Source: Streptomyces afghaniensis 772 (GTDB taxonomy: Bacteria; Actinomycetota; Actinomycetes; Streptomycetales; Streptomycetaceae). Taken from it: a stretch of 46,854 nt of DNA. Below, one piece after another: positions 1 to 18,748 of this stretch. A program made the translations under genes and the position numbers. Numbering within the stretch: position 1 is the first letter of the stretch; every line of letters starts with the position of its first letter. Where the stretch lies: positions 1 to 46,854 of the forward strand of contig KE354466.1 of the NCBI GenBank assembly GCA_000415505.1, read 5' to 3'. Below the pieces are notes generated by a model. That model ran no database searches, was not told where the DNA came from, and saw only the letters and a list, made by a program, of their open reading frames with translations.

Positions 1-1189
1 GGACGTCGGGCCGGTAGGACAGCCGAACCGCCAGGCTGCGGCCGGGCAGTACGGAGAGGGTCAGCGGGTAGTGGGTGGCGTCACGGCCGGTGAGCTGGGT
101 GACTCGCGAGGCGCCCTTGTCGGCGGGCGCGGGGTAGCTCTCGAACGCCAGCAGGGTGTCGAAGAGATCGCCCGTGCCGGTGGCGCGCCGGATGTCGGCG
201 AGGCCGAGGTATTGATGGGGCAGCAGGCCCGACTGCCGGCTCTGGATGCCGGTGAGCAGATCGGCGACCGAGTCGCCGTCGTCCCAGCGGACGCGCGTGG
301 GGACGGTGTTGATGCAGAAGCCGACCATCGAGGCCACGTTCCGCAGCTCCGGCGGGCGGACCGTCACGGTCTGGCCGAACACGGTGTCGGTGCGGCCGGT
401 CAGCCGGCCCAACAGCACACCCCATGCGCCCTGGACGAGGGTGTTGAGGGTCACGCCGAGCGAGCGAGCCGTCCTCTCGGCGGTGGCGGTCAGCTTCTCG
501 GAGAGCTCGACGACGACTTCGTGCGGCAGGACGGTCGTGGCCGGGGCTCCGGGGACGAGCAAGGTGGGCTCGACCACCCCTGACAGGGTGTCCTGCCAGG
601 CTTCCTCGGCGGCCGTACGGTCCTGCCCGGCGAGCCACGCCAGGTAGTCGCGGTACGGCGGCACGTGCGGCAGGACGGTCGGATGCTCACCCCCGTACAG
701 GGCGGTGAACTCCCGGACGAGCAGCTGCTTGGACCAGCCGTCCAGGAGGATGTGGTGGTTGGTGATCAGCAGCCGGTAGCGGTCCGGGGCCCAGCGGACG
801 AGCAGCTGACGCAGCAGCGGGGGCTTGGCGAGGTCGAAGCGCCGAGCACGCTCCTCGTCGAGCAGCCGCTGCCAGGCCGCCTCCCGCTCCCTCTCCCCGA
901 GTGCCGACACATCGGCCTCGGCCCACGGGAGTACGACGTCCGTCGGCACGATCTGGAGCGGCCGGCCGGCGTCCCGGCGGCGGAAGCACGCCCGCAGGTT
1001 CGGGTGCCGGTCGAGGAGGGCCTGCCCGGCGGCTCGTACGGCGGCGGGGTCGACGTCGCCCGTGAGCTCCAGGATCTGCTGGGCGGCGTACACGTCGGGG
1101 CTCTGGTCGTCGTCGTAGAGGGCGTGGAAGAGGAGCCCCTCCTGCAACGGCGACAGGGGCAGGATGTCGGCGATTCCGGACCGAGTCAC
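1..1189 (-). CDS. Nonribosomal peptide synthetase, N-terminal condensation domain (cut by window edge)
   Basis: The reading frame is open for all 396 codons to the window edge, so this is the start of a larger NRPS. It begins with a GTG at 1189 preceded by a strong GGAGGT ribosome site, a few bases after the stop of the upstream NRPS gene. The protein opens with ADILPLSPLQEGLLFHAL and carries the condensation motif HHILLDGW near residue 135, then a VGFCIN block and an LPHQYLGLADI block, all standard C-domain landmarks. The LPLSPLQEGLLFH opening is typical of C domains that follow an epimerization domain and take a D-configured donor. That fits, because the previous protein ends in an E domain. 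The A and T domains that would define its residue lie outside the window. The call as an NRPS C domain is firm; the DCL subtype is inferred from the opening motif and the context. Confidence 0.93.
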   Translation of the reverse strand, partial: MTRSGIADILPLSPLQEGLLFHALYDDDQSPDVYAAQQILELTGDVDPAAVRAAGQALLDRHPNLRACFRRRDAGRPLQIVPTDVVLPWAEADVSALGEREREAAWQRLLDEERARRFDLAKPPLLRQLLVRWAPDRYRLLITNHHILLDGWSKQLLVREFTALYGGEHPTVLPHVPPYRDYLAWLAGQDRTAAEEAWQDTLSGVVEPTLLVPGAPATTVLPHEVVVELSEKLTATAERTARSLGVTLNTLVQGAWGVLLGRLTGRTDTVFGQTVTVRPPELRNVASMVGFCINTVPTRVRWDDGDSVADLLTGIQSRQSGLLPHQYLGLADIRRATGTGDLFDTLLAFESYPAPADKGASRVTQLTGRDATHYPLTLSVLPGRSLAVRLSYRPDV

Positions 1190-1195
1190 CGTGGG

Positions 1196-4100
1196 TTACC
1201 TCCACTCGCTCGCGAACTCGGCTTCGAGTTCGTCGATCTCTGCTTGGGACAGCGACACCAGTGGCAGATCGGACGGGGTGTGCCCGCCCGCCGACGTGGC
1301 GCCGGTCATGGCGGTCAGCGCGTCGCACCACAGGTCGGCGAGGGCGCGCACGTCGTCCTCGGACCAGATACCGGGCGCCCACGACCAGGTGGCCCGGAGC
1401 CCTTCGTCGCCGGCCACGGCGGTGATCTCCAGGCCGTGGGCGACGGGGAGGGCGGGGTCGTGGGCGGTGCCGCCCAGGTACGGCAGCGGTTCCGGAGCCG
1501 GTGACCAGTCGCCGTCCGCCGTACGCCCCGTACTCGCCGTACGGCCGAGGTAGTTGAAGCCGACCTGCGGAGCCGGGTGGGCGGCGAGTGCCGGACCGGT
1601 GGCGGGGTCGAGGTGCCGGAGCAGACCGTGTCCGATGCCGTTGTCCGGAACCACGCGCAACTGCTCCTTCACACTTCGCAGCACCTGCGCGCAGTCGTCC
1701 GGGTCGAGCCCGGTGAGGTCCAGCCGCGCCGGGACGACGCTGGTGAACCAGCCCACCGTCCGGGAGAGGTCCACACCCTCGGCCACCTCCTCGCGTCCGT
1801 GCCGCTCGATGTCCAGCAGCAGCGCCGGGTGGCCCGTCCACCGGGTGAACGCGAGGGCCAGCCCGGCCAGCAGGACGTCCTCGGGGCCGGCGTGGAAGGC
1901 GGCGGGGACGGTGGTGAGGACGGTGTCGGCGACTGCGGCGGGCAGCGTGCGCGTGAGGTGGCGCATCGTGCCGATGACGTCCCGCCCCGGGTCGGGCCGG
2001 CGCGCGCCCAGCACCGGGTCGGGGGCCTGGAACATCCGCTGCCAGACGTCCAGCTCGGAGGTCCGCGCCCGGGCCTGCCGTTCCAGCAGCAGCGACCAGT
2101 GGCGGAACGACGTGCCGACCGGGGGCAGTTCCTCCCCGCGCCAGGCGGCGGCCAGGTCGGTGCGGAGGATGTGCCAGGAAACGGCGTCGACAGCCAGGTG
2201 GTGCACCGTCAGCAGGAGCCGTCCGGGACGGTCGGGTCCGGCGTCGTACCAGACCGCACGTACCAGTGCGCCCGCCTCCGGCCGCAGTTCGGGCAGCTGT
2301 CCGAAGTCCGGGACGGTCGTGACGCGTTCCAGAAGGGTGTGCGCGTCGACGGAGCCGGGCGGCGGAATGTGGGCTTCCCAGTCGCCGCTCAGGCGCATCC
2401 GCAGTGCGTCATGGTGGTCCAGGATCGTCTGGAGCGCCGTCGCGAGGCGGCTCTCGTCGGCCCCGGCGGGCGTGACCAGCAGCACCGACTGGCTGAACGA
2501 GCTGATGGGACCGCCGCGTTCGCGCAGCCGGTGCATCGCCGGAGTGAGCGGCAGCTCACCGACGGCGGCTCCCGCACCGCGGCCACCGGTGCCGGGGCCG
2601 GCGGGTCACCACCACCGCCGCGAGGCCTGAGACCGTGCGCTGCTCGAACACATCGCGGGGGGTGAGGCGCAGCCCGGCCGCGAGGGCGCGGCTCACGAGG
2701 TGGATGGAGGCGATGCTGTCTCCGCCGAGGTCGAAGAAGCCGTCGTCGACGCCCACACCGTGCCGGTCGAGACCGAGCACCTCGGCGAACAGCTCGCGCA
2801 GGGTCTCCTCCTGCGGTGTGCGCGGGGACCGGCTCTCCGTCTCCACGGCGACGGAGGGGGCCGGCAGCGCGGCCCGGTCCAGTTTGCCGTTGGGCGTCAT
2901 CGGCAGTGCGTCCAGCACCACCAGCGCCTCCGGAACCATGTGGTCGGGAAGATGGCGCGCCGCGTGCGCCCGTACGTCCGCGCCGTCCACCTCGGCCGGC
3001 CCCACGAGGTACCCGACCAGCCGTCGTACGCCCGGCCGGTCCTCGCGCACGGCCACCGCGGCCTGCTCGACGTGGTCGTGCGCGGTGAGCACGCCCTCGA
3101 TCTCGCCGGGCTCGATCCTCAGGCCCCGGATCTTGAGCTGGCCGTCGGCCCGCCCGCGCAACTCCAGCATGCCGTCGGCGCGACGTACGGCCAGGTCGCC
3201 GGTGCGGTACATGCGTTCCCCGGGCGGCCCGAAGGGGTCGGCGACGAACCGCTCCGCGGTCAGGCCTGGCCGGTTCCGGTAACCCCGTGCCACTTGGTCG
3301 CCGGCCACGTACAACTCGCCTTCGACACCGGCCGGTACGGGGTTCAGCCACGCGTCGAGGACGTACGCCCGGGTGTTCCACATCGGGCGCCCGATGGGCA
3401 CCGGGCCGGACGGGAGGTCGTCGCCGGGTTCGATGCGGTGGTCGGTGCAACCGACGGTGAGCTCGGTCGGGCCGTAGTGGTTGATCAGCCGTACGCCGGG
3501 GTGGTCCCGGCGCCAGGAACGCAGCACCTCCCCGACCAGGGCCTCGCCGCCCAGCATGAACTCCTCGGCGGGCGAGATGTCGTGCGGCAGCGCGGGCAGC
3601 AGCGCGAGGTGGCTGGGTGTGGCCTTGAGGAACGTGTAGCCGCCGGACAGCGGCTGCGCGCCCGCCTCGTGGACGGCGGCGATGTGCACTCGTCCGCCCA
3701 CGGCGAGCGCGCCGTGCAGGGTCGTCACGGTGGCGTCGAACGACATGGTGGCGTGCAGCAGCGAGGCACCGCGCAGGCTCGGATACGCCTCCGCGCAGCG
3801 CGCCACGTACGTGGTGAGGTTGCGGTGCTCGACGACGACACCCTTGGGGCGGCCCGTCGTGCCCGAGGTGTAGATCAGGTAGGCCGCATCGGCGGGGCGG
3901 GCCTCGGTGAGCTCGATGCCGGGGGCGTCCGCGTCCGGGCTCACGATCGGGCACGCCACGGCGACGGGCGGCTCCTCCCCGGCGATGACGCACACGGGCT
4001 CGGCGTCGGACAGCAGATACGCGGTCCGCTCGGCCGGATGCTCCGGGTCGAGCGGCAGATAGGCCGCACCCGCCTTGAGGACCGCCAGCACGGCCACCGC

Positions 4101-7100
4101 GAGGTCGACGGACCGTGACAGCGCGAAGGCGACGATCCGGCCCGGCCCGGCGCCGTGCGAGGTCAGTGCCCGGGCCAACCGGTCCGTACGCGCGTCGAGT
4201 TGCCCGTAGGTCAGGTTCGTACGGGCATCCGTCACGGCCACCGCGTCCGGCGTCTCGGCCGCCCGCGCCTGGAACATCCGGTGGAATGCCGTCACCGGCA
4301 CCTCACGAGCGGTGTCGTTGAACTCGACGAGCAGGCGCCGCCGTTCGGTCTCGCCGAGGATGTCGAGCGCGCCGATCGGCCGGTCGGGCTCGTCCACGGC
4401 GGCCCGCAGCAGTCGCTCCAGCCGGGCGGCCAGCTCCTCGGCCGTCTGCCGGTCGAAGAGGTCCGCGCTGTACTGGAGGATGCCCTCGATGCCGTCCGGG
4501 AAGCCGTCGCGGGTGCGGTGCTCGCCGAGGTTGAACGTCAGGTCGATCTTGGTGGCACCGGTCTCCACGGTCAGCGCGCCGGTCGTGAGGCCCGGCAGGT
4601 CGAGCCGGGGTTCCGCGCCGCCGGGGCGGAAGGCGAGCATCACCTGGAACAGCGGGTGCCGGGCGAGCGAGCGCGGCGGGTTGAGGGCCTCGACCAGCTG
4701 CTCGAACGGCAGGTCCTGGTGGGCGTAGGCCGCGAGGTCGGTCTCCCGGACCCGGCCGAGGAGGTCCCGGAAGGTGGGGGCGCCGGAGGTGTCGGTGCGC
4801 AGGACGAGCGTGTTGAGGAAGCAGCCGATCAGGTCATCGAGCACCTCGTCGGCGCGGCCCGCGACCGGTGTGCCGAGCGGGATGTCGGTGCCCGCGCCCA
4901 GCCGGGTGAGCAGCGCGGCGAGGCCAGCCTGTACGGCCATGAACACCGTCGTGCCGGTCTCGCCCGCCAGCTCGCGCAGCCGCCCGTGCAGCGCCGCGTC
5001 CAGCCGTACGGGGATGTCGCCGCCCTGGTGCGTGGCGCGGGTGGGGCGGGGGCGATCGGCGGGCAGGGCGAGTTCGACGGGCAGTCCGGCCAGGGCCTGC
5101 TTCCAGTACGCGAGCTGACGATCCATCAGCTCGTCGTCGGCCAGCAGCTCCCACTGCCGGACGCCGAAGGCGGCGTACTGCACCGGAAGCGGCGCCCACT
5201 GTGGGTCCCGTCCCTCCAGCCGCGCCCGGTACGCCGTGGCCAGATCACGGACGAGGGGCTCCAGGGACCAGCCGTCCGCCGCTATGTGGTGCAGCACCAG
5301 CAGCAGGACGTGGTCCTCGGGACCCAGGGCCAGGAGGTGAGCGCGGAACGGGGCGTCCTCGGTGAGCAGGAACTCGTGGCGCGCCAGCTCAGCGAGGCGG
5401 TCCGGAAGTTCGGTCTCCGTGACGCTCTCGGCGTGCAGCCGTGGCCGGGCCCGCGCCGGGTCGAGGAGCAGCTGGCGCGGTGTGCCGTCGGCGTCCGGGT
5501 AGACCGTGCGCAGGATCTCGTGCCGGGTGACGACGTCGGCCAGGGCGGCGCGCAGAGCGTCCGGATCGAGCGCGGCGCCTGTCAGCCGTACGGCGAGCGG
5601 GATGTGGTACGCCGCACCGGACCCCTCCAGCCGGTCGAGGAACCACAGCCGCCGTTGCGCGGACGACAGCGGAGCCTCGTCGACGACGGTACCCGGCGTG
5701 AACGGCCGGGAGGCGGGCCGTACGACGGTGTCCGTGCCGATCAGGCCGGCCAGGGCCGCCGGAGTGGACGCCCCGAACAGGTCCCGCAGTGTCAGGTCCG
5801 CACCCAGCGTGTCGCGGATCCGGCCGATCAGGCGCAGGGCGAGCAGGGAATGGCCGCCGAGGGCGAAGAAGCTGTCGTCCGGACCGGTGGCGGGCAGGCC
5901 CAGGACCTCTGCGAAGAGGCCGCACAGTGCCTCCTCCCGCGGGGTGCGCGGGGCGCGGCTGCCGCTGCGCACCGACGGAACCGGCAGGGCGGCGCGGTCC
6001 AGCTTGCCGTTGGGGGTCAGGGGCAGTCCGTCCAGCCGTACGACCGCGGAGGGCACCATGTAGTCGGGCAGGCGGCCGGTGAGGTGGGCGCGCAGGGCGT
6101 CCGGGTGCGGTGCCGTGCCCTCGACGGGAACCGCGTACGCGACCAGACGGCGGTCGCCGGGACGGTCCTCACGGACGAGCGCGACCGCCTGGGCGACCTC
6201 CGGGTGCGCGGTAAGGGCCGCCTCGATCTCGCCGGGCTCTATACGGAACCCGCGCAGCTTGACCTGGCCGTCGGTCCGCCCGTGGAACTCCAACTCGCCG
6301 TCCTCGGCCAACCGCACACGGTCCCCGGTGCGGTACATCCGGCTGCCCGGCGGGCCGTACGGGTCCGCGGTGAAGCGTTCGGCGGTGGCGTCGGGGCGGC
6401 CGAGGTAGCCGCGGGCGACACCGGGCCCGGCCACGTGCAACTCGCCGACCGTGCCCGGTGGGACCGGTCGCAGGGCGCTGTCGAGCACGTAGGCGCGCAT
6501 GCCGTCGAGCGGGCGGCCGATGGGCAGTGCGTCGGGCACCGAGGCCGTGTCGGGGCAGGGGCGGCAGGTGGCGAAGGTGGTGGTCTCGGTCGGGCCGTAG
6601 CCGTTGGTGACCGTCAGACCCGGGCAGGCCGCGAGGACCTGGCGAACCGCGGACGCGGGGACGGCCTCGCCACCTGCCCACACCTGGCGCAGCCCGGCGA
6701 AACAGCCGGGGTCCTCCTCGGCGGCCAGCCGGAACAGCCCTGCCGTCAGCCACAGCGCCGTCAGCCCGTGCCGTGAGGTGAGGCGGGCGACCGCGGCGGC
6801 GTTCACCTCCTCGTCCGCCGGTGCGAGCACGGCCGTGCCGCCGCCCAGGAGCGGCACCCACATCTCGTACGTGGACGCGTCGAACGCGGTCGGCGAGTGG
6901 ACCAGGACCCGTGCGTGCGCGCCACCGCCGAACGCCGAGTCGGCGGCGAGGGCGGTGATGTCCCGGTGGGTGACGGCGACACCCTTGGGCGTGCCGGTGG
7001 AACCGGATGTGTAGCTGACGTATGCCAGCCGGTCCGGGTGCAGCGGCACGTCGGGGTCGGTGTCGGGCTCGGCGGCGAGGGACGGGTCGGTCGCCCCCAC

Positions 7101-8825
7101 CACGCGGAGACCGTCGTACGTGCCGTCCGTGTCGCTCGCGTCGCCGGTGGTCAGCAGGACCTCCGCGCCCGTCTCGTCGAGGATCCGCGCGGTGCGCGCG
7201 GCCGGGGCGCGCGGGTCGAGACCGACGTAGGCGCCACCCGCCTTGAGGACGGCCAGCAGAGCCACGATCAGGTCGTCGGAGCGGCGCATCAGGACGGCGA
7301 CCCGGTCCTCGGGGCGGACTCCGAGCCGGAGCAGGCGGTGGGCGAGCCGGTTGGCGCGGGCGCTCACGTCACGGCAGGTGGTCTCACGGTCGCCGTGGAC
7401 GACGGCCGTGGCGCCGGGTTCGGCGGCCGAGCGCGCCGCGAAGACGCCGGGGACGGTACGGCTGCTCCCTGTGGCGGGAACCGGCCCGTCGAGCCGGGCC
7501 CCCTCTCCGGGCGCCACCAGCTCCACCCGGCCCACCACCGTGCCGGGGCCTACCGCCGCCGCCGCGAACCGCTCCACGAAGCGGAGCAGACGCTGGTGGT
7601 GGGCGGTCAGCCCGGCGTCCGTGAAGTGCTCGGGGCTCGCGTCCAGGTCGACCCGGATGCCCTTGCCGTCCGAGCGGTCGTAGACATTGACGGCGAGGTC
7701 CTCGACCGGCCCCGTGGACAGGTTGTGGCGGGTGGTCGGATGCCCTGCGAAACGCAACTCGGGCCCGAAGGCCATGATGTTGACGACCGGGCCGAAGAAG
7801 CGGCGCCCGTCCTGCGGCCAGTCCAGCGCGCGGCGCAGGTCCTCGCCCCGGAAGCGCTGGTGGGCCAGCAGTTCGCGGGTGGCGCGGGCGGCCTGCCGCA
7901 CGAGGTCGACGGCGGGGGTGTCGGGGCGTACGGACAGCCGCAGCGGGAGCACGTTGGACGCCATGCCGGGGGTGGTGAGCTCGGTGTGGCTCTCGCGGCC
8001 GGTGACGGCGAGGCCGAGGACGACGTCCCGGGCGCCGGTGAGCCGGTGCAGACAGGCGGCGGTCGCCGCGAGGACGACCCGCGACCAGCGGGTGCCGGCG
8101 CGTTCGGCGGCCAAGTGCACGAGGTCGCCCGCCGGTCCGGGCAGGTGGCCGGTGCGGCGCAGGAAGCGGTCGGCGACGTGCGGTGGGCGGCCGGCCAGGC
8201 TCACCGGGTCGGGCCGGTCGGCGAGGGCACGCGTCCAGTACGCGCGGTCCTGTTCGTGCCGTTCGCCCGCGCGGTAGGCGCCGTCGGCGGCGACCAGCGG
8301 GGCCAGGGGAGCGGGCGGCGGGGTGTGCGGGGTGCTCTCGGCGAGCGCGGTGTAGGCGTCGGCCACCCGCTGGGCGATCAGTGAGCAGCTGAAGCCGTCG
8401 ACGGCGATGTGGTGGTAGGCCTGGTACCAGATCCAGTGGTCGTCCGCGAGCCGCAGCAGCGTGTACCGGAACAGCGGTCCACGGCCGAGGTCGAAGGGCG
8501 TGGCGAAGTCGGCCGCCATCCACTCCCGCGCGGCCTCGGCTCCGGCGGCGTCGACGACGGGCATGGTCCAGCCGGGACCGCTCCCACCGGGCTCGGCGTC
8601 GACGAGCAGGCGTACGCCGTCGTCGTCGGACGCGAACCGGGACCGCAGCGTCTCGGTCGCGTCCACCACCTGCCGTACGGCCGCGCGGAGCAGCATCGGA
8701 TCGACGGGGCCGTGGATCTCGGTGTACTCGCCGACGTTGTAGGCGCCGCCGGCTCCGTCGAGCCGCTGGCCGAACCACATCGAGCGCTGGGCGGCGGACG
8801 GCGTGAGTGTGCGTGGCACGGTCAT
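1196..8825 (-). CDS. Two-module nonribosomal peptide synthetase C-A-T-C-A-T-E, split by a one-base frameshift
   Basis: The start is the ATG at 8825, overlapping the stop of the upstream gene (ATGA). Domains by approximate residue: C1 1-435 (HHIAVDGF at 138), A1 440-950, T1 980-1045 (LGGHSL), C2 1065-1490 (HHIAADGW), A2 1500-1990, T2 2005-2075 (LGGDSI), then E. C1 resembles the EntF condensation domain, including the FGPVVNI and [14 protein letters not shown] blocks. Pocket residues read by eye against GrsA: A1 D-A-Y-W-W-G-G-T-F-K, close to a valine code; A2 D-A-T-K-M-G-H-V-G-K, close to the aspartate code DLTKVGHIGK. The E domain has [18 protein letters not shown] and FNYLG, so it should be active; T2 also has the GGDS form usual before E. 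The frame of T2 ends at a TGA at 2556, while E continues in another frame to 1196. Removing one C from the run at 2603-2605 joins them. Without the indel the protein would be about 2542 residues. Confidence 0.93.
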
Positions 8826-10120
8826 CGGCCGGCTCCCGACGTGGTGGTGGACAGCTGCCGCCCCACCTGCTCGGCGACCGTCTGCGGGCCCTCGCCCCCG
8901 GGGGACCAGACGGCGCGCAGCCAGGGCTCGGCGGGAACGAGCGCGAGGTCGTCCGCCCGGCGGGCCCGGCCGCCGCCGGTGACGTTGAGGAGGATCAGCT
9001 CGTCGCGGCCGACGCGCCCGGCCCCTACGGCGTCGGCGAGCGCGGCCAGCGCGACACCGGCACCGGGCTCGATGTCTATGCCCTCGATCTCCTCGAACAG
9101 GGCCATGGCGGCGAGAGCGGCTTCGTTGTCCACGCACAGGATCTCCCCGCCGCTCTCGACCAGCACCTCGCGCACACCGCCCCGGAGGCTGAACGGAGGG
9201 CGGCGATTGGTCAGTTCGCGGGCCAGCGGCTCGTGCTCACGGTCGGCGGGGGCCCGCCCGCCCGAGCGCCAGGCCTCGTACAGCGGGGCGAAGGGCGTGT
9301 TCTGACACATCAGCAGACGCGGCAGAGGCTCGTCGCCCGAGCGGATGCGGCGTGCCGCCTCATGGGCGCCGATGGCTCCCGTACCGCTGCCGACGGCCTG
9401 GACGTACGTCTGGGGAAGGCCTCCGATCGCCTCGGCAGCGGCGAGCATCACGGTGCCCAGACCGTCGCGGCGGGCGACGTTGCGGGAGCCGCCCTCGGCC
9501 TGGTGGCCGGGCAGCCGGGCCAGCAGATCGGCGCAGGAGATGGCGTCGCTGTAGGTGGCGTCGCCGTCGAGGACGACGATACGGACGCAGGGGTCGAGCG
9601 GGCCGGCGAAGCGCATGCCGTCCAGGGCGGGAGCGGGCACGACGATGAGGCAGGGCATCTGGTGACGGGTGGCGGCCCAGGCGAACGCGGCGGCGGTGTT
9701 GCCGGCCGAAGGGATCACGAGGACGGGCGGGGCAGCCGGCAGACGGCCGAGGACCGTGTACGCCTCCAGGTCCTTGAACGTGCACGTCGGCAACTGCGCC
9801 CCGCGCTCCGGCCAGTACCCGTTGAACGCGACCCACAGTCGGGTCAGGCCGAGACGTCGGCCGAGCTCCCTCGCGCGGTACACGACAGGGCCGGGTACGC
9901 CGGGGAACGTCCGCGCCACGGGCAGCAGTCGGGCGTGACGGAAGAGCCCGGTGCCGCTGTGCTCCGCGGGGCCGTCGTACTCGGTGCGCAGAAACGCCGG
10001 TTCATGCCGGCGGGAGCAGTCGAGGATGAGGCCGTCGTCCTCGTACCGGGCTCCGCAGGAGGAGCACACGATCGTGTAGTGCCGATTTCCCGGGCGTACT
10101 TGGGGGTGTACTCGGGACAT
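8822..10120 (-). CDS. Cysteate synthase-like PLP enzyme (threonine synthase fold)
   Basis: Predicted to make L-cysteate from O-phosphoserine and sulfite, or a related beta-substituted alanine. The 432-residue protein has an N-terminal CSSCG...C cluster (Cys19, 22, 35) and the PLP lysine Lys116 in TCTFKDLEA. It then has [47 protein letters not shown] and LLNVTGGG. These blocks, in this order, are what I know of the archaeal cysteate synthase family rather than of ordinary threonine synthase (whose lysine sits in SFKDR). The start ATG at 10120 has a GGAAGG site upstream. Its stop overlaps the NRPS start by 4 nt, so the two are probably translated together and the product is probably an NRPS building block. 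It could instead use another nucleophile on O-phosphoserine or O-phosphohomoserine. Family call strong, substrate inferred. Confidence 0.82.
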
Positions 10121-10312: not shown

Positions 10313-11500
10313 ATGAGCCCTGGGCAACGATCCGTGGCGCACATGTCGCGACGAAGGAACGGCGGGGAAATGGGCGAGAAGTCGACACATGAAGTCGTGA
10401 CGGAGCGGGCAGATCCTTCACCTTCGCCATGGCTACCTTCCCATGTTCCGGTCAGCTTTTTCCCAATGAATGGAAAAGTCGGGGGCGGTAATCCTTCCGG
10501 GGAATACAAGGAGCCCGTGCCCGATGAACTTCTCGCCGCATACCGGAAGATGGTCGTCGGGCGCCGCTTCGACGTGCAGGCGACCGCGCTGGCCCGTCAG
10601 GGCAGGCTCGCTGTCCACCCGTCCAGCCTCGGCCAGGAGGCCTGCCAGGTCGGCGCCGCGCTCGCCCTGCGCGACACCGACTGGCTGTTCCCCACGTACC
10701 GCGACTGCACCGCCCTGATCAGCCGTGGCATCGACCCCGTCGAGGCGCTGACCCTGATGCGCGGCGACGCCCACTGCGGCTACGACCCGGTACGGCACCG
10801 CACCGCGCCCCAGTGCACCCCGCTGGCCACCCACGCCGTCCACGCCACCGGCCTCGCCCACGGCGAGCGCCTCAAGGGCACGGACACGGTTGCCCTCGCC
10901 CTCCTCGGCGACGGCGCCACGAGCGAGGGAGACTTCCACGAGGCCCTCAACCTCGCGGGCGTCCTGCGGGCACCGGTGGTCTTCCTCGTGCAGAACAACC
11001 GGTACGCCCTCTCCGTGCCGCTCGCCGACCAGACGGCGGCACCGAGCCTGGCGTACAAGGGCGTCGGCCACGGCGTCCGCTCCGAGCAGGTGGACGGCAA
11101 TGACGCGGCGGCCGTACTCGCCGTCCTGACCACCGCCGTCGAGGACGCGCGGGCGGGCGGCGGCCCCTGGCTGGTCGAGGCGCACACCTACCGCATGGGT
11201 CCGCACACCAGCGCCGACGATCCGTCCCGCTACCGTCCGGCCGAGGAGGCCGGGCACTGGCGAGGGCGCGACCCGATCGACCGACTGGAGGCCCGGCTGC
11301 GCGACCGCGGCCTGCTCACCGAGGACGACATCACCACCACGGCGGCCGAGGCCGAGGAGTACGCGGCCGGCCTGCGCACCCGCCTCGCCGAGGACCCCGC
11401 CCTGGACCCGCTCGCTCTCCTCGACCATGTGTTCAGCGCCCCGACCCCACAACTGACCGAGCAACGGGCCGCCTTGCGCGCCGAGTTGGAAGGACGCTGA
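10313..11500 (+). CDS. 2-oxoacid dehydrogenase E1 component, alpha subunit
   Basis: Thiamine-diphosphate-dependent E1alpha, which would decarboxylate a 2-oxoacid (or take a two-carbon unit from a ketose) and pass the acyl group to a lipoyl domain. The thiamine-binding motif runs from GDGATSEGDFHEALN to QNN about 30 residues later. The blocks RQGRLAVHPSSLGQEA, FPTYRDC and YRMGPHTSADDPSRYR are typical of the branched-chain oxoacid dehydrogenase branch. The partner gene starts 1 nt after this stop. The start is uncertain: ATG codons at 10313, 10343 and 10370 are all in frame, and none has an ideal ribosome site; the 10370 start gives 376 residues and still keeps a normal N terminus. No E3 (lipoamide dehydrogenase) gene is nearby, so it would be shared with primary metabolism if turnover needs it. 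Confidence 0.9.
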   Translation: MSPGQRSVAHMSRRRNGGEMGEKSTHEVVTERADPSPSPWLPSHVPVSFFPMNGKVGGGNPSGEYKEPVPDELLAAYRKMVVGRRFDVQATALARQGRLAVHPSSLGQEACQVGAALALRDTDWLFPTYRDCTALISRGIDPVEALTLMRGDAHCGYDPVRHRTAPQCTPLATHAVHATGLAHGERLKGTDTVALALLGDGATSEGDFHEALNLAGVLRAPVVFLVQNNRYALSVPLADQTAAPSLAYKGVGHGVRSEQVDGNDAAAVLAVLTTAVEDARAGGGPWLVEAHTYRMGPHTSADDPSRYRPAEEAGHWRGRDPIDRLEARLRDRGLLTEDDITTTAAEAEEYAAGLRTRLAEDPALDPLALLDHVFSAPTPQLTEQRAALRAELEGR

Positions 11501-11501: not shown

Positions 11502-13676
11502 ATGACGGTGACGACTCGGGCGGCGGCCGCGGCCACCACGATGGCGACGGCCACCACGATGGCGAAGGCCCTGAACTCCGCCCTGCGGGACGCGCTCGAC
11601 GCGGACGAACGGGTCGTCGTCTTCGGTGAGGACGTCGGCCGGCTCGGCGGAGTCTTCCGGATCACAGACGGGCTCGCGGACACCTTCGGCGAACGGCGCT
11701 GCTTCGACACCCCGGCCTGCGAGGCGGGCATCGCGGGTCTCGCGGTCGGTATGGCGATGGCCGGGTTCCGGCCCGTCGTGGAGATGCAGTTCGACGCGTT
11801 CGCCTACCCGGCGTTCGAGCAGATCACCTCCCACATCGCCAAGCTCCGCAACCGCACTCGCGGCGCCCTCGCCCTCCCTCTCGTCATACGCGTCCCCTAC
11901 GGTGGCGGAATCGGCGGAGTCGAGCACCACAGCGATTCCAGCGAGGCGTACTACGCGCACACGGCGGGCCTGAAGGTCGTCACGCCAGCGACGGTGGCCG
12001 ACGCGTACTCACTCCTGCGGGAGGCCATCGACGACCCGGACCCTGTGGTCTTCCTGGAACCCAAGCGCCATTACTGGACGAAGGACGACGTCCGGCTACC
12101 GTCACGCACCGAGCCGTTCGGCACCGCGGCGGTCCGCCGCCCCGGCACCGCCGCCACGCTCGTCGCGTACGGCCCGTCGGTCGCCGTCGCCCTGGAGGCC
12201 GCCCGGGAGGCGGCGACCGAGGGCATGGACATCGAGGTACTGGACCTGCGCACCCTCGTCCCGCTCGACGACCACGCCCTCACCGAGTCGGTACGGCGCA
12301 CCGGCCGCTGCCTGGTCGTGCACGAGGCACAGAGCTTCGCCGGGGTCGGCGCAGAGATCGCCGCACGGGTCCAGGAGCGCTGCTTCGACGCTCTGGAGGC
12401 CCCCGTGCTGCGCGTCACGGGCCTCGACATCCCGTACCCGCCACCGCTGCTGGAGAGCGCGCATCTGCCGGGCGTTGGGCGGGTGCTGGACGGGTTGCGG
12501 CGACTGCTGCCCGACGGCGGACAGCCGGGCGTGGGTGTACGGCGGGTGTTTCCGGTACCCGTCGGCGGGGCGGGCACCGACGGCCGGACCGTGCGAACCT
12601 TCCGACTCCCGGACCTGGGTGAAGGGCTGGCGGAGGCCGAGGTACTGGAATGGACGGTCGCCGTGGGCGATCACGTCACCCACGACCAGACCGTGGCCGA
12701 GGTCGAGACGGCCAAGTCCGTCGTCACGCTGCCCAGCCCGTTCGCCGGGACGGTGACCGCCCTGCACTGCGCCGCCGGAGAGATCGTCAAGGTCGGGGCG
12801 CGACTGATGTCGGTGGCGCAGGCTTCCGGGGAGGGCGGGGCGAGTGCCGACTCGTCTCCGGAGGCAGGCTCGGGTGCGGGCACATCTCCCGGGACCGGGT
12901 CGGGGGCGGTGCTCACGGGGTACGGAACCGGAGCGCGCAGCGGCCACGTGGCGAACGAGGCCGGCCCCTCGGAGAACGGTGAGCTCGGCACCTCTCATCA
13001 GCCAGGCATACGCATCCCCCTCGACGCAGCCGCCGAGAAGTTCCACCGCGCCCACCGCGACACACCCGCCGTCACCATCTGGGCGGACGCGGATGCCACG
13101 GGCCTGCTCGCCGCCCGTGACACCCATGGCACGGGTCTGCTTCCCCTGCTGGCCCGCGCATGCCTCTCCGGGCTCGCCGCCTTCCCCGAACTGAACGCCC
13201 GGGTGGACACCGGCCGGGCGGAGATCGTCCGGCTGCCCCACGTGCACCTCGGCTTCGCCGCTCAGACCGGTCAAGGCCTGGTCGTTCCCGTCGTACGGGA
13301 CGCCGACCGGCTGCCGCTCCACGCTCTCGCCGCCGAACTGCGCCGCCTCACCGACTGCGCCCGGCGGGACGCGGTCCCCGCCGGCCACCTCACCGGCGGC
13401 ACCTTCACCCTCAACAACTACGGCCCCCTCGGGGTCGACGGTGCCACCCCGATCCTCAACCACCCCCAGACGGCGATGCTCGGCTTCGGCCGCCTCGTCG
13501 ACCGTCCCTGGGCCGTGGACGGCCGCGTGGAGGTACGCAAGGTCGCTCACCTGTCTCTGACCTTCGACCACCGCGTCTGCGACGGCGGCACCGCGGCCGG
13601 ATTCCTGCGCCATGTGATCGCGCGCATCACCGCCGCCGAACAAGCCAATGGAGGCGAAGACGTCCCAGCTCCATGA
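11502..13676 (+). CDS. Fused 2-oxoacid dehydrogenase E1beta-lipoyl-E2 acyltransferase
   Basis: One 724-residue frame joins two normally separate subunits. Residues 20-345 are E1beta (VFGEDVGRLGGVF, FDTPACEAGIAG, EAQSFAGVGAEIAA). Residues 365-440 are a lipoyl domain (LPDLGEGLAEAEV; lipoyl lysine near residue 404 in VETAKSVV). After a Gly/Ser-rich linker, residues 505-715 are the E2 acyltransferase with the active-site motif DHRVCDG near 689. The linker keeps a VLTGYGTGA-like piece, but I see no peripheral-subunit-binding domain, which in normal E2 docks E1 and E3. Covalent fusion to E1beta would make that domain unnecessary. The arrangement recalls NapB/NapD and QncN/QncL, two-component systems that hand a glycolyl unit from ketose phosphates to an acyl carrier protein for NRPS use. 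It could equally make branched acyl-CoA starters. Confidence 0.92.
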   Translation: MTVTTRAAAAATTMATATTMAKALNSALRDALDADERVVVFGEDVGRLGGVFRITDGLADTFGERRCFDTPACEAGIAGLAVGMAMAGFRPVVEMQFDAFAYPAFEQITSHIAKLRNRTRGALALPLVIRVPYGGGIGGVEHHSDSSEAYYAHTAGLKVVTPATVADAYSLLREAIDDPDPVVFLEPKRHYWTKDDVRLPSRTEPFGTAAVRRPGTAATLVAYGPSVAVALEAAREAATEGMDIEVLDLRTLVPLDDHALTESVRRTGRCLVVHEAQSFAGVGAEIAARVQERCFDALEAPVLRVTGLDIPYPPPLLESAHLPGVGRVLDGLRRLLPDGGQPGVGVRRVFPVPVGGAGTDGRTVRTFRLPDLGEGLAEAEVLEWTVAVGDHVTHDQTVAEVETAKSVVTLPSPFAGTVTALHCAAGEIVKVGARLMSVAQASGEGGASADSSPEAGSGAGTSPGTGSGAVLTGYGTGARSGHVANEAGPSENGELGTSHQPGIRIPLDAAAEKFHRAHRDTPAVTIWADADATGLLAARDTHGTGLLPLLARACLSGLAAFPELNARVDTGRAEIVRLPHVHLGFAAQTGQGLVVPVVRDADRLPLHALAAELRRLTDCARRDAVPAGHLTGGTFTLNNYGPLGVDGATPILNHPQTAMLGFGRLVDRPWAVDGRVEVRKVAHLSLTFDHRVCDGGTAAGFLRHVIARITAAEQANGGEDVPAP

Positions 13677-13773: not shown

Positions 13774-14196
13774 TCATGGCGTCGGTCGGTGCGGCCGCGG
13801 CCCGAACCTGACCTCGGCTTCGGGGGCGAGGCCGAGCTGCGGGCCGGTGAGCCGTTCGGGCGCCGTGATGAGGATGTTGTAGTGGTTCGGGAAATGGCAG
13901 GCGTCGAATCCCAGGACCGTTCCCACCAATCTCCCGCCGGCCCAGACCTCGTCGCCCCGGTCGATGACGCCGGCGCAGCCGATCTCGACGAAGCCCAGGA
14001 ATCCGACCCGGTCGATGCGGGCGCCGGCGGCGGTCTTTGTGTGGTCCGTGGTCACCAGCTCGTGCACCTCCCCATGTCGGACACACCGGCTCGCGAACCC
14101 CTCCAGGGTCATCCCCCGGTCGTCACGCCGGTGGATGAGGACCTTCACCAGCCGTCCGTACACGGCGCGCTTGGCACCGTCCTCTCCGGGTGTCAC
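13774..14196 (-). CDS. Conserved small protein of unknown function (possibly DUF6917)
   Basis: A 140-residue soluble protein with no signal peptide, membrane segment or catalytic motif that I can name. Recognisable blocks are FASRCVRHGEVHELVTTDHT, DRVGFLGFVEIG, WAGGRLVGTVLGFD and CHFPNHYNILI. I associate this pattern with a conserved family of unknown function (DUF6917), but from memory only. The several conserved Cys and His residues (CVRHGEVHE, DACHFPNH) could bind a metal. The start is a GTG at 14196 that overlaps the stop of the oxidoreductase gene (GTGA), so it is co-translated as the last gene of the minus-strand operon. A role in the same pathway as the oxidoreductases is likely by position; nothing more can be said. 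Confidence 0.75.
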   Translation of the reverse strand: MTPGEDGAKRAVYGRLVKVLIHRRDDRGMTLEGFASRCVRHGEVHELVTTDHTKTAAGARIDRVGFLGFVEIGCAGVIDRGDEVWAGGRLVGTVLGFDACHFPNHYNILITAPERLTGPQLGLAPEAEVRFGPRPHRPTP

Positions 14197-15137
14197 GGGT
14201 GGCGTACCTCCTGTCGGGGGTGGGGGCGAGCGGGGCCTTCGCAGGCGTACGTGGCGGCCACCAGCTCCAGGGCGGCCAGACCGTCGGGGCAGTTCGGGCG
14301 GCGGCCGGACAGGACGTCGGTGAAGTCACGTAGTACGCCCACGTATTCGTGCCAGAGGGACCCTTTGAACTCCGGATGGCCCGCGAGCATGTCGGCCTGG
14401 TCGACGGTCCCGTCGGCGAGCCGCACCTCGACCGTCTTGCGTTCGCCGGGCCGGGACCAGTCGAGCACCACCCGGGCCGCCGCGCCGGACGGGGCGGTCA
14501 GCAACACTCGCGCCTGCCGGTCGACGCCGCGCGCGTCGCGGTGCACGGTGGCCTCGGTCACCCGTACGTCTCCGAGGAACAGGCGAACCAGATCGAACGC
14601 GTTGGGCCCGTTGTCGGCGACGCAGCCGCCCCCGCAGCGCTCCGGGTCGAGATACCAGCGGTCCCTACCCGCGTGTTCCTCGATCGTCTCCTCGTAGCGC
14701 ACCGTCAGCGACACGATCGGGGCGCCGGAGGCGATGCGCCGGCGGAGCGCGTCGACCTCCCTGTTGTAACGGCGGTGGAAGGAGGTGAACAGCACGGTGC
14801 CGTTCTGCCGGGAGAGTCGCGCGAGTTGGCGGCCGTCGTACGCATGCGTGGCGAGCGGCTTCTCCACGCACACCGCGCGTCCGGCTGCCAGCGCGTCCCT
14901 GCACACCGGATAGTGCAGGTCGTTGGGCACGTTGACCACCACGGCGTCCAGGTCCGCGGCCCGCAGCAGCTCGCGGTGGTCGCGGAAGCGCGGCACGTGC
15001 GCCGGTGCGGCGGCGAGCCGGCTCTCGTCGGGGTCGCAGACCGCCACCAGCCGCGCGCACGCGGCGCTTTCGAACGCGGCCAGGTAGAAGCGGGAGATGA
15101 CACCGAGGCCGATGAGACCGATGCGGGGGAGTGTCAT
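14193..15137 (-). CDS. Gfo/Idh/MocA-family NAD(P)-dependent oxidoreductase
   Basis: A 314-residue oxidoreductase that would oxidise or reduce a hydroxyl/keto group on a sugar, cyclitol or similar substrate. The N-terminal Rossmann motif is GLIGLGVISRFY, followed by AVCDPD and the family signature EKPLATHAYDG near residue 95, where the lysine normally takes part in catalysis. The C-terminal half is the usual alpha/beta domain, with GGGCVADNGPNAFDLVRLF in the substrate region (this family often has a DxGxH there; here it is DNGPN, so the usual histidine is replaced by asparagine). It overlaps its neighbours by 4 nt on both sides. A second member of the family is the first gene of the same operon, suggesting two redox steps on one intermediate. 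Exact substrate unknown. Confidence 0.9.
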   Translation of the reverse strand: MTLPRIGLIGLGVISRFYLAAFESAACARLVAVCDPDESRLAAAPAHVPRFRDHRELLRAADLDAVVVNVPNDLHYPVCRDALAAGRAVCVEKPLATHAYDGRQLARLSRQNGTVLFTSFHRRYNREVDALRRRIASGAPIVSLTVRYEETIEEHAGRDRWYLDPERCGGGCVADNGPNAFDLVRLFLGDVRVTEATVHRDARGVDRQARVLLTAPSGAAARVVLDWSRPGERKTVEVRLADGTVDQADMLAGHPEFKGSLWHEYVGVLRDFTDVLSGRRPNCPDGLAALELVAATYACEGPARPHPRQEVRHP

Positions 15138-16363
15138 GCCGGGCTCCCCGCCTCTGTGGGCGGGACGGGTTCCGGGAAGCCGAGACCGCTGTTCCGGGCC
15201 AGATCGAGCATCTCCCGGTGCAGGGCCGGCTCCAGCGGGACGCCGTGAGCGCGCCGTTCGCGCGAGCGGGCGTCCTCCGGCCAGCCGGGATAGCTCACCG
15301 GTTCGTCCGCCCGGACCGGCGGGCAGCCGAGGAGGGCGCCGAAGAGGGCGGCCGCGTCGCTGCGGAACTCGGCCTCGGGCCTGAGGCGCCCGGGGGCGAC
15401 GGCCAGCAGGAAACAGCCGATGTCGTCGTCCGGGCCGGCCGGCTCCGCCGCCTCCTCCCGCGGCCCGATCCCGGCACCGGGGACGAGTGCGGACAGTACC
15501 TCGACCAGCAGACCGAGCCCGAAGCCCTTGTAGCCGCCGGTGTCCGGGTCACCGCCGAGCCAGCGCAGGTGCGCCTGGCCGCGGTCGAAGGCGGCCGGAT
15601 CGGTCACCGGCCCGCCGTCGTCGTCCTGGAGCCAGCCCGCGGGCACGCTCTGCCCGGCGCGTGCGGCGGCCCGGACCCTCCCGGTGGGGGCGACCGTGGT
15701 GGCCATGTCCAGGACGAACGGCGGCCGGTCGCCGGCCGGGGCGGCCAGCGCGAGCGGGTTCGTGCCCAGCATGGGGGAGCGTCCGCCGACCGGACGGACG
15801 ATCCGCTGCCGGCCGCAGTTGGCGGTGACCAGGCCCACCATGTGGTGCCGGACCGCGCGCAGGGCGTGGTGGCCCGCGCAGCCGAAGTGGGTGGCTCCCC
15901 GCACCGAGACCATGCCGACCCCGTACCGGCGGGCGCGCTCGACCGCCAGGTCCATCGCCTCGGTGGCGGCCCACAGACCGAGCGCCCGGCGGGCGTCGAG
16001 GAGCACCGAGGCACCGCGGTCGGTGACGATGCGCGGCTCCGCGCGCGGGTCGCAGCGGCCCGAGTCGAGCAGGGGCAGATACAGCCGGGTGAGGTTGGTG
16101 ATGCCGTGGCTGGTGAAGCCCGTCAGGTCGCCGTGGCACAGCGCGTCGGCGGCGGTCCCCGCGCGGTCCTCGGGCAGTCCCCTGGCTCGGAAGACCTGTG
16201 TCACGAACGCGAGGAGGCCCGGGTAAGGCACCCGGACGGCGGCGTCGCCGGTGGTGCCGGGGGCCTGGGGCGGGACGGCGCACGGTCCGGAACGGGGCTG
16301 CGCGGCAGCCTGGGCGGTCGCGTCCGCGGAGGCTGTGGAGATGGGGGAAACGGTAGAGGTCAT
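15134..16363 (-). CDS. Ldh2-family malate/L-lactate/sulfolactate-type dehydrogenase
   Basis: A 409-residue NAD(P)-dependent 2-hydroxyacid or imine reductase of the Ldh2 family. This family includes sulfolactate dehydrogenase ComC, ureidoglycolate dehydrogenase and piperideine-carboxylate reductase. Landmarks: a Ser/Thr/Ala-rich N-terminal extension of about 40 residues, DLTGFTSHGITNL near residue 80, VRGATHFGCAGHH (catalytic-region histidine), SPMLGTNPLALAAPA, and the glycine-rich GGYKGFGLGLLVE. It overlaps its neighbours by 4 nt on both sides. With a cysteate synthase in the same cluster, reduction of sulfopyruvate to sulfolactate (or the reverse) is an attractive role. Reduction of another 2-oxoacid or cyclic imine is just as possible from sequence. 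Confidence 0.88.
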   Translation of the reverse strand: MTSTVSPISTASADATAQAAAQPRSGPCAVPPQAPGTTGDAAVRVPYPGLLAFVTQVFRARGLPEDRAGTAADALCHGDLTGFTSHGITNLTRLYLPLLDSGRCDPRAEPRIVTDRGASVLLDARRALGLWAATEAMDLAVERARRYGVGMVSVRGATHFGCAGHHALRAVRHHMVGLVTANCGRQRIVRPVGGRSPMLGTNPLALAAPAGDRPPFVLDMATTVAPTGRVRAAARAGQSVPAGWLQDDDGGPVTDPAAFDRGQAHLRWLGGDPDTGGYKGFGLGLLVEVLSALVPGAGIGPREEAAEPAGPDDDIGCFLLAVAPGRLRPEAEFRSDAAALFGALLGCPPVRADEPVSYPGWPEDARSRERRAHGVPLEPALHREMLDLARNSGLGFPEPVPPTEAGSPA

Positions 16364-17796
16364 CGAGGAGAGATCCTGTCCGCGGCCGCGCCGGGCACGG
16401 CAGCTGAGTGAGCGTCGGATGGTTCGTCGGCGCCTTCGCCGGGCGGCCCGTGGCGGACCCTGGCGATGAGAACGCGGGCGATCTCGTCGGCGTAGCGGTC
16501 CAGGGCGTCCAGGTCGACGTACTCACCGGGGGCGTGCGCGTGGTTGGTGTCCAGGCCGCCGGGGCCGAAGACCGCCGTGTAGCTGTCGGGTACGTCCGCC
16601 ATCCAGATCGCGTCGCAGGTGAAGGCCGGTTCCTCGTCGGGCCAGCGCGTCAGGCCCGCGTGTCGTTCCAGCAGTTCCTCGGCCCACGGCGCGCGGCCTC
16701 GGCCGTCCAGCGCGGGCAGGCCGCGTTTGTACCAGTGCAGGGAGGTGATCCGTGTCGCGTCGGAGGCCGTCCTGGCCAGGTCAGGGGTGCCGGTGGCCCC
16801 GCAGGTGAAGTCGGCGAGTGCTTCGCGCAGGGCCTGCTCCAGCGCGGCCTCGGCGGCCCGGCCGGCCGGCCGGGATCCGTAGGAGAGGTTGAGCAGCAGG
16901 CGGCCGGTGCCGTAGACCCGGTTGTGCCGTTCGCCGGTGTGCAGGCCGGCCACGCACACCCTGCCGTCGCCGATCCGCGGCGGCAGGGCCCGGGCGAGGT
17001 AGTGGCCGATGTGCCCGAGCAGCACGGTCGCGTTGTGACCGGCTTCGGGGCGGTCGTCCACGGCGTCCTCGCCCGCGACGCGGACCAGGGCCGTCATGGA
17101 GGCCGTCGAACGGGGCAGGAAGCGGTGCCCGGTGGGTTCGCAGAACAGGTTCAGCCCGCCGGTGAACCCGTCCTCCACCAGCGGCCTGGTGCCGAACGTG
17201 CCCATGGCACCGCCTTCTTCCCCGGCCACTGCCTGGACGAGCACACCGACCCGGCTGCCCAGGGCCGGCTCGGCGGCGCGAGCGGCCCGGATCCCGGCGA
17301 GCAGGGCGACGGCGGGGCCCTTGGCGTCGACCGCTCCACGGCCGGTGAAACGCCGGCCGTCGAAGCCGGCCGGCCACCAGCCGGCCACCGTGTCCAGGTG
17401 GACGTTGAACATCACCGTGTCCTGCCGCGGGAGTTCGGGGCCGAGGCGCAGCACCAGACTGGGCTGCGAGGCCAGGAACGTCTCGTCGCGCGCCGCCTCC
17501 CGGACCGTGAGCGGCACGTCGTCCCTGCGCAGCACCGCAGGATCCGGCGGGGCGTGGCGCAGCACCTTCAGACCGAGGGTCGCGGCGGCGGCCGCAAAGG
17601 CCCGGCCGGCCTCCCACAGGCGCACGGGGGGACCATCGGTGCCGGTCTCCAGGGGTCCGGCCGTGGGAGTGCCGAGCAGATCGAGCAGCAGGTCGTGATC
17701 GGCTGGTGTCAGCCGGGCGGGCGGCGACAGCGCCGCGGGGGGCGAGTGGGCGGCGGATCCGGCCGGGGGAGCAGGCCGGGCCGGAACGTCAACCAT
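16360..17796 (-). CDS. M20-family metallopeptidase / deacylase (ArgE/DapE-like)
   Basis: A 478-residue zinc hydrolase likely to cleave an amide, for example removing an acyl group or a dipeptide from an intermediate. Metal and catalytic motifs are in the expected order: HLDTV near residue 133, DAKGPAVALLAG near 155 (bridging Asp), GEEGG near 190 (catalytic Glu pair), and HAPGEYV near the C terminus. The first 35 residues are Pro/Ala-rich and probably disordered. The ATG at 17796 is the chosen start because it overlaps the upstream stop by 8 nt; the frame is open further upstream but only as the antisense or alternate frame of the neighbour. It overlaps the next gene by 4 nt. In pathways of this kind such enzymes often remove a protecting acyl group, but the substrate here is unknown. 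Confidence 0.88.
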   Translation of the reverse strand: MVDVPARPAPPAGSAAHSPPAALSPPARLTPADHDLLLDLLGTPTAGPLETGTDGPPVRLWEAGRAFAAAAATLGLKVLRHAPPDPAVLRRDDVPLTVREAARDETFLASQPSLVLRLGPELPRQDTVMFNVHLDTVAGWWPAGFDGRRFTGRGAVDAKGPAVALLAGIRAARAAEPALGSRVGVLVQAVAGEEGGAMGTFGTRPLVEDGFTGGLNLFCEPTGHRFLPRSTASMTALVRVAGEDAVDDRPEAGHNATVLLGHIGHYLARALPPRIGDGRVCVAGLHTGERHNRVYGTGRLLLNLSYGSRPAGRAAEAALEQALREALADFTCGATGTPDLARTASDATRITSLHWYKRGLPALDGRGRAPWAEELLERHAGLTRWPDEEPAFTCDAIWMADVPDSYTAVFGPGGLDTNHAHAPGEYVDLDALDRYADEIARVLIARVRHGPPGEGADEPSDAHSAAVPGAAADRISPR

Positions 17797-18748
17797 GCCG
17801 ACCCCCACCGGCGGGAACCCGGTCGGAGAGGAATTCCTGCCGCACGAGCCGCGCCAGGCACCGCCCGTAGCGGACGAACTCCGCCACGCCGTCGGCGGCG
17901 GTGGTGTCCTGGCCCTGGTGCGGTTGCAGACGGGTGTGCGGTTCGATGGACCAGGCCCCGGTGTAACCGTGGTCGGCCAGGGCCCTGAGGCAGGAGCGCA
18001 CAGCGGACTCCCCGGCGCCCGGCAGTGTGTACGTGACCTGACCGTCCGGCCCGGTCCGCGCGTCCTTGACGTGCACGTGGGCGACGTGGTCGATGATCTC
18101 GTCCAGCAGCGCGCGGGCGTCGTAGCCGTACGGCACTCCGTTGCCGGTGTCGAACAGCAGCCGCAGCGCGGGACCGCCGGCGCGGTCGAGGAGCTCCCGC
18201 ATCCGGTCGGCCCGGGTGCCGGCCCAACCACTGCAGTTCTCGTGCAGCAGCACCAGGCCCTCCTGCTCGGCCAGCCGGACCAACCGGGCCATCCGGTCCA
18301 GCGCCCGCCTGCCCCACTCCTCTTCGTCCAGGCCGTTGTTGGGGTAGGACATCACCCGGACGAACCGGGTGCCCAGGGTGGCGCAGCGCCGGGCCAGTCG
18401 CCGCAGCTCCCGGACATCGTCCTCGAAGCGCCCGGTGATCGGGCGGCTCCAGTCGGCGATCCGGGAATCGACGCAGACGACGTCGAGACCGGCTGCCGCG
18501 ATCCGGTCGGCCAGGCCGGCGAAGGCACGGTCGTCGAGGTCGGCGACCGCGACGCCGTCGACGGTGCGCAACTCGATCGCCGTCCAGCCGAGCCGGCGCA
18601 GTGCGTCCAGTTGCCCGGTGAGATCCGCCGCGGCCTCGTCCCCGATGCCCGCGAACCGGATACCGGGAGCCGTCCGCCCGCTCGGGGCGTTCTCGGTCGC
18701 GCCGCACCGGGAGTCCTCAGCGCCCGCTCCGGAAAGGTCAACGTCCAT
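17789..18748 (-). CDS. Sugar phosphate isomerase/epimerase-like TIM-barrel protein
   Basis: A 319-residue xylose-isomerase-like (AP endonuclease family 2 fold) protein. Metal-binding residues are visible: Glu in LLHENCSGW, Asp in LLFDTGNGVPYGY, His in HVHVKDA, and Glu in SIEPHTR. Members include sugar and inosose isomerases, epimerases and dehydratases, which often work with Gfo/Idh/MocA enzymes, two of which are in this operon. The ATG at 18748 was chosen because it has an AGGAGG site about 10 nt upstream and overlaps the previous stop by 11 nt. The first 40 residues precede the barrel, which begins around IRFAGIGDEAAADL. The reaction cannot be named; isomerisation or dehydration of a keto-sugar or cyclitol is the natural guess. 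Confidence 0.88.
   Translation of the reverse strand: MDVDLSGAGAEDSRCGATENAPSGRTAPGIRFAGIGDEAAADLTGQLDALRRLGWTAIELRTVDGVAVADLDDRAFAGLADRIAAAGLDVVCVDSRIADWSRPITGRFEDDVRELRRLARRCATLGTRFVRVMSYPNNGLDEEEWGRRALDRMARLVRLAEQEGLVLLHENCSGWAGTRADRMRELLDRAGGPALRLLFDTGNGVPYGYDARALLDEIIDHVAHVHVKDARTGPDGQVTYTLPGAGESAVRSCLRALADHGYTGAWSIEPHTRLQPHQGQDTTAADGVAEFVRYGRCLARLVRQEFLSDRVPAGGGRHG

Follow-up and report, generated by a model that had tools for sequence, protein, structure and literature searches.

Positions 1-13676 of the window (the whole 46,854-nucleotide stretch analyzed here, contig C761 of the Streptomyces afghaniensis 772 draft genome of 9.85 Mb in 1724 contigs) very probably hold the first part of a cysteoamide-type nonribosomal peptide synthetase (NRPS) cluster, in which a pyridoxal phosphate (PLP)-dependent enzyme would make cysteate and the second adenylation (A) domain of the first synthetase, A2 of NRPS1, would take it. 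This reading draws on gene content and order, orthology to a locus of Streptomyces lincolnensis, the family of the enzyme, and the specificity codes of the A domains. Codes were read via alignment to A2, with residue numbering by GrsA and an interpretation of codes that we take to be the standard ones. The features of this region are as follows (C, condensation; E, epimerization; PCP, peptidyl carrier protein; ORF, open reading frame):

1..1189, minus strand: start of NRPS2 with a C domain, running off the contig end (Pfam; 96% to S. resistomycificus)
1196..2536, minus strand: E domain ORF (TIGR01720)
2537..2605 (about), minus strand: frame-change region from PCP2 to the E domain (from the sequence; a single ORF in orthologues)
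2556..8825, minus strand: NRPS1, C-A(Val-type code)-PCP-C-A(DATKMGHVG)-PCP; two C, two A, and two PCP domains by Pfam, codes by alignment
3393..3872, minus strand: A2 core segment, code DATKMGHVG, proposed cysteate taker (code alignment)
6534..7016, minus strand: A1 core segment, code DAYWWGGTF (code alignment)
8822..8825, minus strand: ATGA overlap of the PLP gene stop and the NRPS1 start (from the sequence)
8822..10120, minus strand: cysteate synthase homologue, PLP enzyme of 432 aa (TIGR03844 over cut-off; fold match 9k3c)
10313..11500, plus strand: 2-oxoacid dehydrogenase E1 alpha, proposed role in acyl starter supply (TIGR03181, 400.9 bits, just below the cut-off of 411.35)
11502..13676, plus strand: fused E1 beta-E2 with transketolase, lipoyl, and acyltransferase domains (Pfam)

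A scan for relatives of the enzyme gene with one genome per species found 337, and the best 80 of these 337 are referred to here as named loci. The gene caller was tuned to high G+C, and genes were missed in low-G+C loci among them. Genes for E1 alpha, E1 beta-E2, the PLP enzyme, and an NRPS with the code DATKMGHVG stand together in one order in 20 of the 80 named loci, and further copies of the unit are cut by contig ends in L093 and L119. The first A domain reads DAYWWGGTF, which with its final Lys (DAYWWGGTFK) is presumably a Val code, in 15 of the 20; the others (L078, L083, L089, L092, and L107) differ, some perhaps through alignment slips.

One of the 20 is the S. lincolnensis locus (L084), which shares with the window E1 alpha, E1 beta-E2, the cysteate synthase (81% identity), and an NRPS1 with Val-type then DATKMGHVG codes, all in the same order. 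Apart from the PLP gene of this locus, no TIGR03844 match above the cut-off was found in the S. lincolnensis genome. The modules of L084 read DAYWWGGTF, DATKMGHVG, DFWNVGMVH, DAMLIGAVC, and DVFSAGFIY; a thioesterase motif, an ORF of MbtH size (70 aa), and a P450 come next. We take DFWNVGMVHK to be a Thr code. S. lincolnensis is the species from which Wang et al. reportedly described the cysteate peptide cysteoamide (J Org Chem, 2018). According to a passage of PMC13260306 that cites Wang et al. 2018, the monomers are phenylacetic acid, Val, cysteate, Thr, beta-hydroxyleucine, and beta-Ala. The modules and tailoring genes of L084 fit this list, with beta-Ala ascribed to the last module by its matching position, and we infer that L084 is the published cysteoamide cluster.

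The nearest named orthologous locus lies in S. resistomycificus (PLP enzyme, 91%; NRPS1, 93%; NRPS2 start, 96%; E1 alpha, 97%; E1 beta-E2, 90%). Past NRPS1 it encodes NRPS2 with one A domain, NRPS3, a free-standing A-PCP protein, a short-chain dehydrogenase/reductase (SDR), and a thioesterase. In the S. afghaniensis genome, NRPS2 finds matches of 90-91% on contig C616 and the free-standing A-PCP a match of 90% on contig C615; the window would thus be the start of a cysteoamide-type cluster of which more lies on these two contigs. A Thr-type third module and a last module resembling that of S. lincolnensis are both present there: the third-module code on C616 is DFWNVGMVP (DFWNVGMVH in S. lincolnensis), and a 909-aa ORF on C615, assigned to the cluster by size and order, reads DVFS-GFIY (DVFSAGFIY in S. 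lincolnensis). Also placed by size and order on C615 are ORFs of 274 and 70 aa that resemble the S. resistomycificus set and a 182-aa ORF where S. resistomycificus has its 242-aa thioesterase.

The comparison diverges at module 4. At this point an in-line A domain is present in S. lincolnensis and in G089, whereas the NRPS2 of the window's relatives lacks a second in-line A domain, and S. resistomycificus, unlike L084, has the free-standing A-PCP, SDR, and thioesterase but no P450 that we could find adjoining its MbtH-size gene. The in-line DAMLIGAVC domain and P450 expected for beta-hydroxyleucine do not recur in the S. afghaniensis genome; C616 yielded no second A-domain code, and a free-standing Thr-type A-PCP was found on C615 instead. 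Because NRPS2 on C616 shows no second A-domain code and the A-PCP is present on C615 as in S. resistomycificus, module 4 of the window cluster is probably loaded in trans by the Thr-type A-PCP, an arrangement also suggested by the A-domain order of G210 and NRRL WC-3618. The pathway would therefore be known in kind, as cysteoamide, with a different fourth module. An orphan cluster is thereby tied to a compound already in the literature, and module 4 is singled out as the only module at which the product should depart from it.

The preliminary description of this DNA read the PLP gene as overlapping the NRPS start by 4 nt, and the minus-strand junction CCG-ATGA-CCG bears this out. Among the 20 cysteoamide-type named loci, 15 have such a junction, as ATGA (13) or GTGA (2), and 4 have TTGA, while L079 was missed by the motif filter. 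The E domain scores 125.9 bits against TIGR01720 (cut-off, 74.2) and carries [10 protein letters not shown]. Its presence, as described earlier, is thus confirmed, with one correction: it occupies an ORF of its own after a frame change at about 2537-2605. Since G089, G210, S. lincolnensis, and S. resistomycificus each encode NRPS1 and E in one orthologous protein of 2548-2566 aa, there is a frameshift between PCP2 and the E domain in this draft, either real or an error. A tRNA of undetermined type called by ARAGORN inside the NRPS1 gene (8177-8268, plus strand) was taken as a false hit.

The code of A2 is DATKMGHVG, completed by the Lys of an NGK motif, as first described, and the suggestion that this domain takes cysteate gains support because the identical code occurs in the locus of S. 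lincolnensis, the species of the published cysteate peptide, and because the code travels with the enzyme. It is improbable, in our view, that A2 instead activates Asp, or Asp and cysteate alike, with the product of the PLP enzyme used elsewhere. Asp-type codes do lie just one or a few residues away, DLTKMGHVG occurs in two genomes that lack the enzyme, and the title of the 2017 JBIR-78/-95 paper mentions substrate promiscuity; against this stand the identical S. lincolnensis code and the distribution of residue 236, which is neither Leu nor Met in the enzyme-linked clusters of 14 relatives, out of 15 whose NRPS surroundings could be read, versus 1 of 64 distinct control domains.

This distribution comes from a search of 297 genomes of the family in which the enzyme was called present at E <= 1e-60 (19 positive, the window's genome counted) and A domains at E <= 1e-25; position 278 of non-Asp codes, which varies through alignment slips, was excluded from use. 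Among the 18 other enzyme-bearing relatives, 15 have NRPS genes with A domains in surroundings of 20 to 80 kb, and none were found at this range in G121, G261, or G179; in G179 the enzyme gene and three DATKMGHVG domains are some 4.3 Mb apart. The 14 relatives with a linked Asp-like domain whose residue 236 is other than Leu or Met, a set that includes Kitasatospora-type clusters with dihydroxyphenylglycine (Dpg) genes, have Ala in 13 (DATKMGHVG in 12, DATKIGAVN in G293) and Ser in one (G211). In the fifteenth, G159, the contig ends near the PLP gene, and two other contigs carry DATKMGHVG and DATKMGHVA. Two linked domains read DLTKVGEVG (G199 and G211), presumably an Asn-type code. As controls, 65 Asp/Asn-like A domains were sampled from 53 genomes that lack the enzyme, or 64 distinct domains after one duplicate (L169 = L254); their residue 236 is Leu 56 times, Met 7 times, and Ala once (G034). 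The 18 A domains at other loci of enzyme-bearing genomes comprise 11 with Leu/Met, 5 with DATK (G179 and G159), and 2 reading DGTKMGSVA (L206 and L207, in G066 and G195, away from the enzyme gene).

At the genome level the contrast is 17/17 versus 1/53 (Fisher test, p about 2e-15), a value that conveys only the size of the effect, since the samples are less independent than the test assumes: the domains are related to one another, the search was seeded from a DATK domain, G121 and G261 are left out, and the 53 control genomes, sampled mostly through their strongest hits, were drawn from 82 hit genomes without the enzyme. Within 10 kb of the enzyme gene, four more named loci have Asp-like domains with DITK (L098, L100) or DSTK (L112, L116), and several others have A domains nearby with no Asp-like code in the stretch examined. 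When 111 A-domain segments are placed on a tree, it takes five changes to account for the non-Leu label, of which only two are forced by well-supported branches. The swap at residue 236 probably arose more than once, since the DSTK group stands apart and the DATKIGAVN domain of G293 falls among DLTK domains. The DSTKIGHVG or DSTKVGHVG synthetases linked to cysteate synthase come from Nonomuraea and Microtetraspora (L112, L116) and from G211 (L064 with L044) and represent a separate A-domain lineage.

On balance we favor the view that an Asp-type code with Ala, Ser, or Ile in place of Leu236 is the mark of a cysteate-taking A domain and that this mark, together with a cysteate synthase gene, exposes several undescribed sulfonated-peptide families in actinomycetes. 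Clusters of Kitasatospora and Streptacidiphilus would be among them, with predicted products that contain dihydroxyphenylglycine along with two or three cysteates. The link between code position 236 and cysteate synthase may be a new result. A one-residue difference that tracks the enzyme would allow sulfonated peptides to be spotted from sequence; the cysteate-taking A domain of the discodermins, for example, was predicted as Asp, according to a passage in PMC12858407.

The PLP enzyme was described earlier as a cysteate synthase, and its assignment to that family is supported by profile and predicted structure alike. It scores 366.7 bits against TIGR03844 (cysteate synthase; cut-off, 324.9) in a hidden Markov model (HMM) search, in which threonine-synthase models reach at most 67 bits versus cut-offs of 167-421. 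Remaining TIGR03844 matches in the genome reach 45 bits or less, and 12 of 14 control genomes, Methanosarcina acetivorans among them, give a match, with 1 of the 14 over the cut-off. The AlphaFold model (mean pLDDT, 85) has as its best structural match PDB 9k3c, the CapA2 protein of Alistipes finegoldii (TM 0.86, E 4.9e-42, 37% identity), which is annotated as a cysteate synthase in the sequence search; the threonine synthases listed reach TMq 0.56-0.69 with E 1.1e-17 or weaker. F115-K116, S138, and G140-N141-T142, presumably the PLP lysine and asparagine loop, are invariant across 19 homologues. A 62-row tree, for which 41 of the 80 named loci were chosen and L129 was dropped for stop codons, separates 59 cysteate-synthase-like sequences, 5 of them archaeal, from 3 threonine-synthase-like sequences by a long, fully supported branch and places the window enzyme within a starred group of six Streptomyces-type rows. 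It is very unlikely to be a threonine synthase or to catalyze beta-replacement with a nucleophile other than sulfite: threonine synthases share its PLP fold class and its use of sulfite is predicted, but the threonine-synthase scores are low, threonine-synthase-like matches lie elsewhere in the genome, and the linked A domain carries an acidic-type code. More distant relatives of the enzyme, at 40-42% identity, occur in the cyanobacterial loci L123, L125, L128, L129, L131, L132, L135, and L139 (Moorena, Symploca, Richelia, and a Nostocaceae metagenome-assembled genome), where no A-domain code was found within the stretch examined around the enzyme gene.

Archaeal and sulfonolipid cysteate synthases use sulfite and O-phosphoserine. 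CapA2 serves lipid synthesis rather than an NRPS, and the Bacteroidota sulfonolipid pathway is stated in PMC11211663 to start from L-phosphoserine. In the proposed cysteoamide-type pathway, the PLP enzyme would convert O-phosphoserine and sulfite to L-cysteate, while E1 alpha and E1 beta-E2 would help make an acyl-CoA, probably phenylacetyl-CoA. The first C domain of NRPS1 would join the acyl group to Val, A2 would add cysteate, and the E domain would epimerize this residue to D-cysteate. The chain would then be extended by NRPS2 and NRPS3, on C616 and C615, with a Thr-type residue, another that the free-standing Thr-type A-PCP loads, and a last residue corresponding to the beta-Ala of cysteoamide. 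All substrates in this scheme, the D configuration, the phenylacetyl cap, and the product are predictions.

JBIR-78/-95, reportedly described from Kibdelosporangium by Takeda et al. in 2017, offer a second point of comparison. The phenylacetyl cap gains support because, as stated in PMC11546977, a starter C domain joins phenylacetyl-CoA to L-Val in their synthesis. They are heptapeptides, unlike the window's predicted product, and are likened to it here through descriptions in citing papers; a passage in PMC12858407 cites them alongside cysteoamide for cysteate biosynthesis. Cysteic acid also occurs in the nonribosomal peptides stenothricin (mentioned in PMC10880069) and discodermins (PMC12858407), both with another module order, and the latter source reports that no cysteate genes were found in the genome of the discodermin producer. 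The earlier view that it is unusual for an NRPS to make its own sulfonate building block does not hold, as the unit recurs in 20 of 80 named loci and PMC12858407 already refers to "previously described Cya biosynthetic enzymes," for which it cites the JBIR-78/-95 paper of 2017 and the S. lincolnensis paper of 2018.

Several points weigh against a cysteoamide-type cluster with a cysteate-taking A2. The identity of L084 with the cluster of the 2018 paper is our own deduction, and the S. lincolnensis genome record is of strain L4, which may not be the strain of that paper. Module 4 of the window cluster does not match cysteoamide, and the frameshift, if real, would sever the E domain from NRPS1. 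In G034 a DATK code occurs without the enzyme (no TIGR03844 match over cut-off), either as a true exception or because sequence is missing from the draft, which is 95% complete. The A-domain search at its threshold gave no match in two enzyme-bearing genomes, G121 and G261.

The Dpg clusters and the position 236 rule are the parts worth following. In 10 of the 18 relatives (L032-L040 and L042), the enzyme gene is divergent from genes for an aminotransferase, DpgA, DpgB, DpgC, and DpgD, together with a large NRPS. The named loci L113, L114, L133, and L142, and also L118 and L120, likewise pair the enzyme gene with a Dpg operon; the large NRPS, where the stretch examined includes it, mostly has two or three DATKMGHVG modules among about 10-11. 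The Dpg gene families were tested in G177, and the other nine relatives were assigned by similarity. Literature searches of open-licence papers found none joining dihydroxyphenylglycine and cysteic acid, and no such peptide in titles on dihydroxyphenylglycine and Kitasatospora, which is weak evidence of absence.

A cysteine-dioxygenase-like gene related to the CDO_I family lies beside the enzyme gene in 7 of the 10 Dpg clusters (one example is L038:8733-9311) and in L104 and L105 (family tested in G134); none was found in the window. The gene keeps an HxH and a later His and may be a sulfur-oxidation partner of cysteate synthase. Its candidacy as the sulfite source was not upheld: its YRQ stretch fits what we take to be Gln-type thiol dioxygenases. 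Ser, Gly, and other-type NRPS codes stand near the cysteate synthase gene in L030 with L066 (G196), L104, and L105; we consider them reminiscent of stenothricin.

Next to the cluster, an operon on the minus strand (13774..19550; Pfam/HMM) encodes DUF6917, Gfo/Idh/MocA, Ldh_2, M20, sugar-isomerase-like, and uncharacterized proteins. It was considered as a sulfonate pathway and rejected, as it gave no match to the called genes of the 80 named loci (E <= 1e-20, half coverage). The fetched relatives showed nothing beyond one distant-lying Gfo/Idh match of 30%, and the operon's Ldh_2 scores 174 bits against sulfolactate dehydrogenase (cut-off, 500). Farther along are two adjacent EF-hand proteins, each under 180 aa (20361-22110, plus strand), and a plus-strand gene run (22219-34050) with two DegT/DnrJ aminotransferases, a UbiA-type prenyltransferase, a methyltransferase, and a UDP-glucose/GDP-mannose dehydrogenase, perhaps another biosynthetic cluster. 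Cobalt uptake genes for CbiM, CbiQ, and an ABC ATPase lie at 42146-44821 on the minus strand.

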